Assembly (NCBI GenBank): GCA_031285325.1
Contig: JAITWJ010000049.1
Location: 1-45,413 of the forward strand
Direction of reading: 5' to 3'
Origin: Bacteroidales bacterium
Lineage (GTDB): Bacteria > Bacteroidota > Bacteroidia > Bacteroidales > Prolixibacteraceae
Length of the DNA: 45,413 nt
The translations under genes and the position numbers were made by a program. The notes under the pieces were generated by a model. The model made no database searches. It was given only the letters and a program-made list of their open reading frames with translations, and was not told the origin of the DNA. Shown piece by piece: positions 23,390-26,838 of the stretch (positions are counted from its first letter, which is position 1; every line of letters starts with the position of its first letter).

Positions 23390-24478
23390 ATGAACAATAA
23401 TTACTGCGTAATAATGGCTGGTGGAATCGGGAGCCGTTTTTGGCCTCTCAGCCGGAAAACCATGCCAAAACAATTCATTGACATTTTAGGAACCGGGCGT
23501 ACTCTGATTCAACAAACGTACGACAGGTTTTCAAAATTAATACCCAAAGAAAACTTTCTGATTGTTACAAACGTAAAATACCACAATCTGGTTGCCGAAC
23601 AGCTGCCCGAACTCAACGAAGAGCAGATTCTGCTTGAGCCTTTCCGCCGCAATACCGCGCCGTGCATAGCCTATGCCGCAAATAAGATAAAAAAGAAAAA
23701 CCCCGAGGCAAATATTATCGTAGCGCCGTCCGACCATATAATATCGAAAGAAGAAGAATTTGTACGGCAGGTAGAAAATGCGCTCGCATTTGTAAAAAAT
23801 AACGACGCGCTGGTAACACTTGGCATAAAACCAAGCCGCCCGGAAACCGGATACGGATACATACAAGTAAAAAAGAAAGTCGATTTTAACGGAATAGACA
23901 ATCTCTTCAAAGTAAAAACATTCACCGAAAAGCCAGACGCAGTTATGGCAGAAGTTTTTATAAATACGGGAGAGTTTTTTTGGAATTCAGGAATATTTAT
24001 ATGGTCTGTGCAGTCAATAATGAAAGCTTTCCGTACACATCTGGAAGACATTGCCGTACTTTTTGAAAAAGGGCAGAAGTTTTACAACACCGCAAACGAA
24101 ATAAACTTCATTAACAAAACATATCCCGAATGCCAGAGTATTTCTATTGATTATGGAATTATGGAAAAAGCCCAAAACGTTTACGTGCTAACATCCGACT
24201 TCTACTGGAGCGACCTCGGTACATGGAGCGCGCTGTACGAGAACGAAGAGAAAAACGGCGAGGGCAACGTAATTGACGGCGACAACGTTCTTGTGTACGA
24301 CTCGAACAACTGTATAATAAAAGTAACAGGCGATAAGTTTGTTGTAATTCACGGGCTCGACGGTTACATTGTTGCCGAGTCGAACGATGCTCTAATGGTG
24401 TGCAAACGCGAAGACGAACAGCAAATTAAGAAATTCGTAACCGATGTCAGGATTAAAAAAGGAGACTCGCTGGTTTAA
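23390..24478 (+). CDS. manC: mannose-1-phosphate guanylyltransferase
   Basis: Makes GDP-mannose from mannose-1-phosphate and GTP, for fucose- or mannose-containing surface glycans. The 362-residue product has the nucleotidyl-transferase signature GGIGSRFWPLSRKTMPKQF (11-29), then EPFRRNTAPCIAYA, VAPSDHII and FTEKPD, followed by FFWNSGIFIW and the DYGIMEKA / WSDLGTW pair. It is the short, single-domain form without a mannose-6-phosphate isomerase part. A 21-bp tandem array starts 16 bp after its stop and stays in register with its reading frame. Base composition here is richer in GC than in the neighbouring windows. Confidence 0.94.
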   Translation: MNNNYCVIMAGGIGSRFWPLSRKTMPKQFIDILGTGRTLIQQTYDRFSKLIPKENFLIVTNVKYHNLVAEQLPELNEEQILLEPFRRNTAPCIAYAANKIKKKNPEANIIVAPSDHIISKEEEFVRQVENALAFVKNNDALVTLGIKPSRPETGYGYIQVKKKVDFNGIDNLFKVKTFTEKPDAVMAEVFINTGEFFWNSGIFIWSVQSIMKAFRTHLEDIAVLFEKGQKFYNTANEINFINKTYPECQSISIDYGIMEKAQNVYVLTSDFYWSDLGTWSALYENEEKNGEGNVIDGDNVLVYDSNNCIIKVTGDKFVVIHGLDGYIVAESNDALMVCKREDEQQIKKFVTDVRIKKGDSLV

Positions 24479-24493
24479 GAAATATTAATTTTA

Positions 24494-24934
24494 GTGAAAT
24501 AAATATCAATTTGAGTGAAAGGAATGATAATTCAGATGAAATAAATATCAATTTAAGTGAAAGGAATGATAATTCAGGTGAAATAAATATCAATTTAGAT
24601 GAAAGAAATAACAAATTCGGAAGAATATTACTGAAAACAGAACCTCGCGGAGCCAAATAAGAATTGCGCGGAGCCGATTGAGAACCTCGCGGAGCCAAAT
24701 AAGAACAGCGCGAAGTCGATTAAGAACCTCGCGGAGCCAAATAAGAATTGCGCGGAGCCGATTTAGAACAGCGCGGAGTGAAATAAGAATCGCGCGAAGT
24801 CAATTGAGAACTGCGCGGAGTGAAATAAGAATCGCGCGAAGTCGAATGAGAACATCGCGGAGCCAAATAAGAATCGCGCGAAGTAAAATAAGAATAAAGA
24901 AAAGTCGAATAAGAATTAAGAACAGCGAAACAAG
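24494..24934. repeat. tandem array of 21 units of exactly 21 bp
   Basis: From 24494 to 24934 the sequence can be cut into 21 units of 21 bp without a single indel. The first seven (to 24640) are AT-rich; their first five alternate two forms, GTGAAATAAATATCAATTTG.. and GTGAAAGGAATGATAATTCAG. From 24641 there are 14 GC-bearing units of the form AAnnnnCGCGGAGCCAAATAAG with variants, and these also alternate. Stops occur in two plus frames. The third is open for about 16 heptads (R-[TI]-[AS]-R-S-[QER]-[ILM]) but has no convincing start. I read it as non-coding repeat DNA. Confidence 0.9.
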
Positions 24935-24948
24935 AACATATAAATACC

Positions 24949-24970
24949 TTTCAGGAATAAATACCTGAAA
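24949..24970 (+). terminator. hairpin at the end of the 21-bp array
   Basis: TTTCAGG (24949-24955) and CCTGAAA (24964-24970) form a 7-bp stem with an 8-nt AT loop, followed by AAAAC. It may end transcripts that pass through the array. The next ~100 bp up to 25078 hold only AT-rich ATTCATAATTAAC-type repeats. Confidence 0.35.
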
Positions 24971-25078
24971 AAACAGAATAAAAAAATATCAGATTTTGTG
25001 AAATCATAAAAAAATATTAACATTGCATAAACAAAAAATTCATAATTCATAATTAACAATTCATAATTATTAAACATC

Positions 25079-25774
25079 ATGAACAAAGTACAAAGCAGTT
25101 ATTTTAATATGGCGAAAAGCGTTATCGCAGTTTTTCGTTCATACACAGTGTGGGAAGGCATTATGCTAATAGAAGCAGGCGTTAACAGTGTCGGAAAGCT
25201 GATTATACAAATAAATGAAGAAATTGTGAAACAGCAGCAAAACGAAACGCCCGGATATACGGCCGAAAAATACCGGCGGCGCACCACGCTCGAAGACCGC
25301 CTGTTCGGCGTAGCCGTAAAACTGAACGTATATGCACAACAAACAAACAACGATATACTTGCGGCGCAGGTTACGCTTACGCGGTCAGACATCAGCAAGA
25401 AAGCGCTGAACAATCTGCTCGGATTAGCACGCAATGTAAACGCCTATGCGCTGGAACTGCTGCCCGTTCTGGAAAATTTCCAGATAACAAAGGCCGATAT
25501 CGACGAATTACAGGCCGCAATACTCGAAACAGAAGAAACAAGCTCAATCCGCGATGCAATTCGCAGCGAGCGCGTAGGAAATACCGAACAGTTATCGGCG
25601 CTTATCGAAAAAATCCGCAAAGAACTCAAACTGATGGACACACAAGTAGAGGCATTTATAAAAGACGAAGAATTCGTTAGAACATATTTTGCCGCGCGGC
25701 GGGTACACGATGTTCGCAGCAACACAAGAAACAAACCCGAAAACGGCATCACCGAAATAGAAATATCAGACTAA
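25079..25774 (+). CDS. uncharacterised helical protein next to the 21-bp array
   Basis: I do not recognise a named family. The 231-residue product has no signal peptide and no membrane segment. It is rich in Ala, Leu, Glu and Lys and should be almost all helical, with likely helices around 30-52, 67-100, 105-130, 137-152 and 165-195, so a helical bundle is plausible. The stretch EQLSALIEKIRKELKLMD and the next FIKDEEFVRTYFAARRV look like the best conserved part. The last ~25 residues are polar. Codon use is unlike most of the window (more CGC, GCG, CTG), which suggests a different history. It stands alone between repeat arrays. Confidence 0.7.
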   Translation: MNKVQSSYFNMAKSVIAVFRSYTVWEGIMLIEAGVNSVGKLIIQINEEIVKQQQNETPGYTAEKYRRRTTLEDRLFGVAVKLNVYAQQTNNDILAAQVTLTRSDISKKALNNLLGLARNVNAYALELLPVLENFQITKADIDELQAAILETEETSSIRDAIRSERVGNTEQLSALIEKIRKELKLMDTQVEAFIKDEEFVRTYFAARRVHDVRSNTRNKPENGITEIEISD

Positions 25775-25806
25775 ACAAGAGAAATATTAGAATAAATAAA
25801 CGCATA

Positions 25807-25854
25807 GCACATAAATATGTTCCGGCAGCCAAATGCAGCAGCATATTTGTGTGC
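25807..25854. terminator. long-stem hairpin after the helical protein gene
   Basis: GCACATAAATATG (25807-25819) pairs with CATATTTGTGTGC (25842-25854) over 13 bp with one G-T pair, around a 22-nt loop. It lacks a T-run. It could be a terminator or the end of a small inserted element. Confidence 0.35.
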
Positions 25855-25867
25855 ATCACCCGCCCAG

Positions 25868-26057
25868 CTGTCAACTGTCAGTTATGAATTATTAATTATG
25901 AATTATGAATTGTCAACTGTCAATTGTCAGTTATTAACTGTTAACCGTCAGTTGTCAATTGTCCACTGTTAATTATGAATTGTCAACTGTTAATTGTCAA
26001 TTGCCCACTGTTAATTGTCAATTGCCCACTGTCAATTATTAATTGTTATTTGTCAAT
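25868..26057. repeat. array of short AATTGTCA/ACTGTTAA-type repeats
   Basis: About 190 bp are built from variants of AATTGTCAACTGTTAATT in quick succession, roughly 10 or 20 bp apart, together with AATTATGAATT variants. The same vocabulary appears at 7785-7815, 25040-25075, 44028-44060 and 44110-44130, and near 45340. The array reaches into cdaA, whose stop codon TGA lies inside an AATTGACAA repeat. There are no unique spacers, so it is not a CRISPR. Confidence 0.8.
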
Positions 26058-26838
26058 TATCCAAAGAAACTATATTTTCCTCAAGGAGCGACACAAGTGT
26101 TTCCTCTGAAACCTTTAATTTCATTTCGCCCCTTTGAGCAAACGAAATTGTTCCTCTTTCTTCGGAAACTACAATAGCAATTGCATCGGTTAATTCGGTA
26201 ATTCCGATAGCTGCACGATGACGGAGCCCCAGCATCTTGTCGAGTTCCTTCTGTGTAAGCGGCAAAATACAACCGGCCGCAACAATTCTGTTCTCTCTGA
26301 TAATAGTTGCTCCATCGTGAAGCGGCGAATTTTTAAAGAAGATTGTACGAATTAACGGAGAAGTAATCTTTGAATCTAATTTTTCTCCCGTGTTTATCTG
26401 GTCGTTTAACTCCGACTTTCCCGCAATAACAATTAATGCGCCTGTTTTCGACTTAGCCATGTTAACACATGCATCAACAATATTCTCGACCTGTTCACGG
26501 TCAATCGATTTTGATTTTGTAACTCCAAATAATTTATCAATTGAAAGAATTCGGTTTACATTATAGTTTGTGCCTATAAAAACTAAGAATTTACGTATCT
26601 CAGGATGAAAAACAATGATAAGCGCCAAAACGCCAACCCCTATAAATTGCCCCATAATCGACCCTAACAGTTCCATGTTAAGCGCTTTTACAATAATCCA
26701 AAGCAGATAAAGAGAAAATAATCCGATAACAATGTTAAACGCCACCGTTCCTTTTATAAGCCGGTACAATTGATAAAGCAGGAGCGCTACAAGTGTTATG
26801 TCAAGAATGTCGAGAAAGCGTACGGTTATAAATGCCAT
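26053..26838 (-). CDS. cdaA: diadenylate cyclase CdaA
   Basis: Makes c-di-AMP from two ATP. The 261-residue protein has three N-terminal transmembrane helices (about 10-30, 35-55, 62-80) and a cytoplasmic DAC domain with the catalytic DGA (175-177, LHDGATII) and RHR (206-208, LGLRHRAAIG). In Bacteroidetes it usually follows folP, as here (4-bp gap). The final residues SLDN end in a TGA supplied by the adjoining repeat array, so the native C-terminus may have been altered. Confidence 0.95.
   Translation of the reverse strand: MAFITVRFLDILDITLVALLLYQLYRLIKGTVAFNIVIGLFSLYLLWIIVKALNMELLGSIMGQFIGVGVLALIIVFHPEIRKFLVFIGTNYNVNRILSIDKLFGVTKSKSIDREQVENIVDACVNMAKSKTGALIVIAGKSELNDQINTGEKLDSKITSPLIRTIFFKNSPLHDGATIIRENRIVAAGCILPLTQKELDKMLGLRHRAAIGITELTDAIAIVVSEERGTISFAQRGEMKLKVSEETLVSLLEENIVSLDN

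Follow-up and report, generated by a model that had tools for sequence, protein, structure and literature searches.

Phased direct repeats beside a protein gene are known from plasmid iterons, which are repeats of about 17–22 bp next to the gene of a Rep initiator, and from parC-ParR partition sites, in which the genes of a small adaptor protein and of a motor ATPase or GTPase accompany the repeats. A different case are the type III toxin-antitoxin loci, with repeats of about 34–48 nt that give a structured (pseudoknot) RNA and a toxin, the ToxN endoribonuclease, that is not helical. Among the Bacteroidota, Porphyromonas gingivalis carries BrickBuilt, a minisatellite-bearing MITE with intergenic 23-nt tandem repeats (19 copies in one strain), made of one repeat sequence with a leader, a tail and inverted-repeat ends; the part of the published description considered here mentions no linked gene family (PMC4596501). 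We describe here a pairing of an unnamed gene with an array of two-turn repeats that recurs in many Bacteroidota. No curated family in the libraries searched corresponds to either the gene family or the array.

The first example was found in a contig of a Bacteroidales bacterium, of which the whole stretch of 45,413 nucleotides analysed is called here the window. A preliminary description had placed an exact 21-bp array after manC, at 24494–24934; TRF and lag analysis confirmed it and extended it slightly, to 24479–24938, with about 22 units, a 42-bp alternation and no register slip. The TRF periods were 21, 42, 63 and 84; over the whole length, lags 21 and 42 gave identities of 0.66 and 0.75, those at lags 20 and 22 being 0.32 and 0.30. 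The array score of this locus was 286.7, compared with 4.4 at most in 30 shuffles. Two types of unit succeed each other on the plus strand. The AT-rich part (24479–24625) has seven units in two alternating forms, with a 42-bp higher order (TRF 21, 42 and 63) and seven anchors (24479–24605) spaced exactly 21 bp throughout. It is followed by a degenerate junction unit (24626–24646), which keeps the phase and in which no anchor was found, and by the GC-bearing part (24647–24938), with units around GCGGAGCCAAATAAGAA, again in two alternating forms (TRF 21, 42 and 84) and with thirteen anchors (24647–24899) exactly 21 bp apart. Both parts fall on one 21-bp grid, although their common phase depends on the anchors chosen because units of one half cannot be aligned with those of the other. 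The higher-order alternation already reported was reproduced in each half, with 0.85 and 0.82 at lag 42 and 0.69 and 0.70 at lag 21.

Behind the array, a spacer of the plus strand (24939–25078) leads to the start codon of a gene on the same strand (25079–25774), the product of which, P0001, has 231 aa, is predicted to be helical and belongs to no known family. A second intergenic array (25882–26061), of 7-bp units with a 21-bp higher order (TRF 7 and 21; best-window match 0.79 at lag 21), lies between this gene and cdaA and is possibly a part of the same module. Actually, heptamer arrays flank the P0001 gene, since the spacer contains a 7-bp repeat tract near the start (25037–25068) and the second array lies past the end; 7-bp arrays were also seen near further genes of the family (L138, L180, L151 and L134). 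An origin of the 21-bp period from 7-bp units was considered and rejected, the match at lag 7 not being raised in the main array (0.29).

On its other side the array borders manC (23390–24478, mannose-1-phosphate guanylyltransferase family), and downstream of the P0001 gene come cdaA and a dihydropteroate synthase gene on the minus strand. The gene manC was present in 36 of the 37 genomes of the genus, and its pairing with mlaE was kept at all the 29 loci fetched from relatives (leaving out the window's own locus). In none of these 29 did the approximately 1.5 kb downstream of manC contain a 21-bp TRF array or a tblastn match to P0001, in a search that would miss remote relatives of the protein. 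The tie to manC in the preliminary description is therefore incidental by synteny, and an array belonging to manC was rejected on this evidence; the register of the array with the manC frame, also pointed out before, is uninformative, as the same would hold for every 21-bp array and every reading frame. From gene order we take the array and the P0001 gene to have been gained in this lineage, with manC as a probable bystander. In two relatives (L234 and L236) manC is followed by 41-bp arrays.

Nothing in Pfam, NCBIfam, PHROGs, PADLOC or PDB matched P0001 convincingly. The best PHROG value was 0.01, and 0.0018 for two relatives; the latter match, to the virion structural protein phrog_6121 in two of ten members, and another to HBM at 0.022 are weak and were not taken as homology. 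PADLOC gave no match among the ten members of the family scanned. The helical model of P0001 is poor (mean pLDDT 54.8), and its comparison with known folds gave nothing at E 0.001 or better. No DNA-binding domain was recognised in the family. In the first 225 residues of 70 members the median pI was 6.4 and the net charge of the helical part was -1, while many DNA binders are not near neutral in charge. By simple hydropathy, a signal-like segment appeared in three of the 70 and a membrane-like one in one, and the product is probably cytosolic. A CarboxypepD_reg match was found at the C-terminal end of 13 of 48 members. Some longer members end in a CarboxypepD_reg-like (L132, L135 and L137) or FN3-like region (L176, L177 and L187), both being domains usual outside the cell. 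There is also a remote sister family that shares the helical part and has an end which drew FN3-type matches and which we read as FN3-like.

With a profile built from ten members, 24 matches were obtained in the genus, where 14 of 37 genomes have the family; in the order the figure was 44 of 295 genomes, and in a sample of 392 from the phylum it was 18. Across Bacteroidota, identity among relatives of the P0001 gene falls to about 20%. The distribution of the family is patchy and paralogues are many, several genomes holding at least nine matches each. Some members are located on multi-megabase contigs. We rejected a phage, plasmid or virus origin for the members tried, as there was no phage match for P0001, no plasmid or phage match for L187, no plasmid match for L161 and no match to the sister family in viral contigs. 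The only neighbour family found in at least three loci within 1.5 kb was a tyrosine recombinase that we read, from its sequence, as XerC/D-like; five of the 18 genus loci (L110, L111, L112, L120 and L125) have its gene on the same strand, 114–459 bp downstream of the family gene. The genome of the window itself contains a paralogue (G000:C79:4510-5172) that is 61% identical to P0001 and has its own 21-bp array just upstream, and neither of the two arrays finds the other in DNA searches.

The preliminary description had suggested a search near homologues of the gene at 25079, and this proved productive. We scanned 75 family genes (1.2 kb upstream and 0.9 kb downstream), leaving out six of the 24 genus loci that were fragmentary or at contig edges (L119, L122, L124, L127, L128 and L129). 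A 21-bp array was present at 61 of the 75, upstream in 55 and downstream in eight, with two loci having it on both sides and six having it downstream only (L110, L111, L113, L120, L140 and L151). These arrays were from about 4 to 26 units long, and in 38 of the 55 upstream cases they ended 40–260 bp before the start codon. No array was detected at L118, L136, L153, L159, L160, L172, L173 and L174, nor at four edge cases with little or no upstream sequence (L141, L142, L152 and L183). Two more loci (L162 and L170) were missed by the 21-bp count, their spacings being either a mixture of 20 and 21 or multiples of about 20.5. As a reference, an array was found within 700 bp upstream of 5 of 678 genes, or 2 of 148 when the gap was at least 300 bp; these control genes, of at least 200 aa, came from parts of genomes of the genus, the order and the phylum that had been selected by position and not at random, and one of them (L195, without an array) is by profile a member of the family. 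The control had a stricter upstream limit than the family (0.7 versus 1.2 kb), and applying it to the family removes L134 and L158 and leaves 53 of 75. The Fisher value for the association, 2e-60, is that of the looser 1.2-kb count and ignores relatedness.

The same pattern appears in loci outside that set. In a held-out group of 20 near-full-length matches, previously unseen and picked by hand from five genomes of the order, 15 had a 21-bp array, every one upstream; among the other five, L275 showed lags of 62, 41 and 21 (a period near 20.5), L281 and L282 lags of 22 and 44, and L278 and L286 none. In the sister family, 13 loci have the helical part, of which two were already in the earlier set, and lag profile or TRF showed upstream 21-bp repeats in 8 of the 11 new ones (weak in L246 and L247); L248, L249 and L256 had none. 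Matches to the FN3 part only gave 0 of 17, an unfair control because these are sited inside long proteins.

Unit sequences are near-random between distant loci, and the two-turn period is what they have in common. In 69 upstream regions the median best-window match was 0.62, 0.63, 0.60, 0.60, 0.56 and 0.52 at lags 21, 42, 63, 84, 105 and 126; none of the remaining lags between 4 and 129 exceeded 0.38. Adjacent units differed on average by 7.38 of 21 positions, and in only 1 of 631 adjacent pairs was another lag between 18 and 24 clearly better than 21, in a count that took its arrays from the 21-bp detector, which favours those in register, and did not contain L162 and L170. In L162, copies of the motif GCAAAANNNAAT follow one another at distances of either 20 or 21 bp, with the two distances intermingled. 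Periods of 22 bp were seen upstream of family genes in L281 and L282, and downstream in L164. A stretch of 21 bp makes two turns of the double helix, and the periods of about 20.5, 21 and 22 bp share two helical turns and not a codon count. Random periods in relatives had been proposed as the counter-test to phasing, and the arrays found had periods of 20.5–22 bp; a period retained in unrelated sequences, together with the single register shift, agrees with the earlier view that selection acts on spacing and not on a protein.

Spacing of this kind bears on a neutral origin, in which the arrays would be minisatellites, or pieces of mobile repeats, carried along by a mobile gene. Such an origin would fit the site next to manC, empty of array and gene in the 29 relatives, as well as the recombinase found downstream in some genus loci, the dispersed arrays of period 41 or 42 in the same genome and, in the portion of the BrickBuilt report considered, the existence of a minisatellite-bearing MITE in P. 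gingivalis (PMC4596501). However, a mismatch of 35% should have brought many indels, far from the one shift counted above (with the same reservation about the detector), the recombinase is not a general neighbour, and neutrality accounts neither for one period in unrelated sequences nor for an uneven conservation of the columns. We consider it very unlikely.

The mismatches were in fact unevenly distributed over the 21 columns of the unit in 54 of 56 arrays (z above 3). In 54 arrays, conserved columns were associated at offset 10 (0.042 versus -0.048 by chance, s.e. 0.030) and avoided each other at offsets 5–8 (-0.133, -0.094, -0.118 and -0.097 versus about -0.05, s.e. about 0.027). These effects are modest, each of about 1.5–3 standard errors, and they are consistent with recognition of a single face of the helix. 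A protein-binding or DNA-bending array had been offered before as an explanation, and the conserved columns about one turn apart support its first part; bending by phased A-tracts gained no support from the lag profile, the match in the 69 upstream regions not being raised at lags 10 or 11.

The seven codons that make up 21 bp had also suggested a decayed gene coding for heptads, and more generally the array might code for a heptad-repeat protein or a leader peptide. In 12 of 51 upstream arrays, a single ATG-started forward ORF covers at least 80% of the length. Yet open forward frames occurred in 29 of the 51 arrays, close to the 26.6 (s.d. 2.1) expected from column-resampled arrays, and related arrays have periods near 20.5 or of 22 bp. 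The window array has 13 stops in each plus frame over its full length; the open third frame of the preliminary description is open only in the GC-bearing half (24678–24968), and there, contrary to what was stated, it does have a start, TTG. We found neither the open frame nor the codon-level constraint of a heptad gene. Coding in any frame was rejected and strikes us as extremely improbable.

An action at the level of RNA deserves more weight. The array could be transcribed, and its repeat units could then bind and restrain the protein encoded downstream, in the manner of a type III toxin-antitoxin system; an array directly upstream of a small gene with a patchy distribution and many paralogues would fit such a system. 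Covariation within the units exceeded z of 3 in 6 of 54 arrays (L106, L121, L143, L146, L176 and L187). Correlated columns are expected without any structure in L121 (the window locus), L176 and L187, because each has more than one unit type; this does not account for the signal in L106, L143 and L146, and short stems are visible in L106. There was no general covariation over the 54 arrays when nested stems were tested (median z 0.26), which does not favour a hairpin RNA per unit, and Rfam had no match in 24300–26100. The six loci with a downstream array only, the lack of PADLOC matches in ten members, a period of 20.5–22 bp where known type III repeats are longer and a protein predicted helical where ToxN is not all speak against this reading, which we hold to be quite unlikely.

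Between the array and the ATG we searched for TAnnTTTG, which we take to be a Bacteroidota promoter element, in the 38 loci with spacers of 40–260 bp. It was found on the sense strand of nine (2.4 expected, s.d. 1.4), four of them close relatives (L114, L115, L123 and L126), and on the opposite strand of three (4.2 expected, s.d. 1.9). This enrichment indicates that, at least in those loci, the array is placed upstream of the promoter of the gene, in a position like that of an operator. The spacer of the window (24939–25078) contains no exact copy.

The sequence of the units follows the gene among close relatives and drifts with it. When the proteins were at least 60% identical, 15 of 24 pairs had a unit similarity beyond the 99% null, and the best unit matches had the same orientation in 23 of the 24; below 60% identity, the 99% null was passed by 39 of 1746 pairs. 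The pair of P0001 and its C79 paralogue (61%) gave a similarity of 9.4 (null 95%, 9.19; 99%, 9.91), the units being weakly alike at best. Units related to the GC-bearing ones occur at three other sites of the same genome (G000 C130:12342-12606, C126:16677-16900 and C1:29484-29696), and no family gene was found near these solo arrays. That of C130 lies between genes that we read as hisC-like and hisB-like, in a probable his region. The C79 array and one in genome G034 have one solo relative each. Actually, in 238 kb of stretches of the window's genome, 14 of 20 TRF arrays had a period of 20, 21, 41 or 42, and many arrays of period 20–21 or 41–42 were found across the genus away from family genes. 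Further arrays of 41- or 42-bp units in the same genome (L043:2879-3116, L055:13273-13402, L062:6677-6825, L065:10854-11112 and L064:9311-9536) sometimes show short inverted repeats by eye, and there is a resemblance between the units of L043 and those of L064.

Solo arrays with related units are what would be seen if the array were bound by a host protein of general function, nucleoid-associated or regulatory, the gene being merely the commonest neighbour of the array and its product not the binder. The near-neutral family protein, with no known DNA-binding domain, would suit this too. But a general binder should have one recognition sequence per genome, and the two gene-side arrays of this genome do not match; nor would the unit sequence be expected to follow the gene as it does among close relatives. 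We judge it rather unlikely.

On balance, and by a small measure, we think it probable that the array is a phased set of protein-binding sites at the promoter of the gene, bound by the gene product or by a partner that co-evolves with it. Array and gene would make up a chromosomal module, with the array as its cis part, located usually just upstream of the gene for a predicted helical protein. Each unit would be a binding site, with its conserved patches about one turn apart, and the sites of one array, being on the same face of the helix, would let the bound proteins line up as a regular nucleoprotein array. The ligand is presumably a protein, most likely the product of the gene itself, possibly with a co-evolving factor, and the outcome may be regulatory or structural, the product acting on its own array by autoregulation or by assembling a complex. 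The solo arrays may be further binding sites of the same protein. The weakest point is the protein itself, in which there is no known DNA-binding feature and the charge is near neutral; the CarboxypepD_reg- or FN3-like ends, the six arrays found only downstream and the relatives without an array also count against this reading, as do the covariation in six arrays, the weak likeness of units between P0001 and its paralogue and the many arrays of such periods away from family genes.

A wider proposal, which we put forward only tentatively and consider somewhat doubtful, is that these are orthogonal protein-array pairs spread over the phylum, in which each paralogue assembles on its own two-turn array in a manner reminiscent of satellites or centromeres, and the solo arrays serve as loading or bridging sites. 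The geometry of the protein would then fix the period, while the recognition sequence and the protein would diverge together. In any case, an unnamed gene family seems to form a single recurrent Bacteroidota entity together with repeat arrays that could pass for noise. A period kept while the letters change is a sign of selection on geometry, which annotation by sequence similarity would miss. If the protein does assemble on the array, there would be here a naturally diversified collection of protein-DNA array pairs open to test, and possibly a new level at which chromosomes are organised or genes controlled.

How does this module compare with those already described? The type III toxin-antitoxin loci also have a repeat array upstream of a small gene, but their repeat length differs, and the family has a protein predicted helical (a model of low confidence), arrays without general covariation, no PADLOC match and no match to a ToxN-like endoribonuclease family. 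To BrickBuilt the likeness is that of intergenic tandem repeats in Bacteroidota, as far as the part of its description considered goes, while the unit sequences here are near-random between distant loci. The parC-ParR sites share phased repeats beside a small-protein gene and a regular nucleoprotein array, such as we propose here, but in our loci no motor ATPase or GTPase recurs within 1.5 kb, and the two members tried had no plasmid match. Iterons are direct repeats of about 17–22 bp in helical phase, and so are the units of this array. They differ in the gene alongside, which is not that of a Rep initiator: P0001 has no Pfam Rep match and no convincing PDB match, and no Rep family is among the 25 of 73 families listed for 48 members. 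They differ as well in their setting, the module being found on chromosome-like contigs, in several copies in some genomes and with a unit sequence free to vary, and having no plasmid match in the two members tried. The module was filed neither with iteron-Rep nor with parC-ParR systems because no Rep-like protein and, within 1.5 kb, no recurrent motor gene was found. Together with the open-access literature, in which we found no account of a gene-array module of this kind, the comparison suggests a hitherto undescribed DNA-protein system, which shares with the iterons phased two-turn direct repeats upstream of the gene of a candidate binder.
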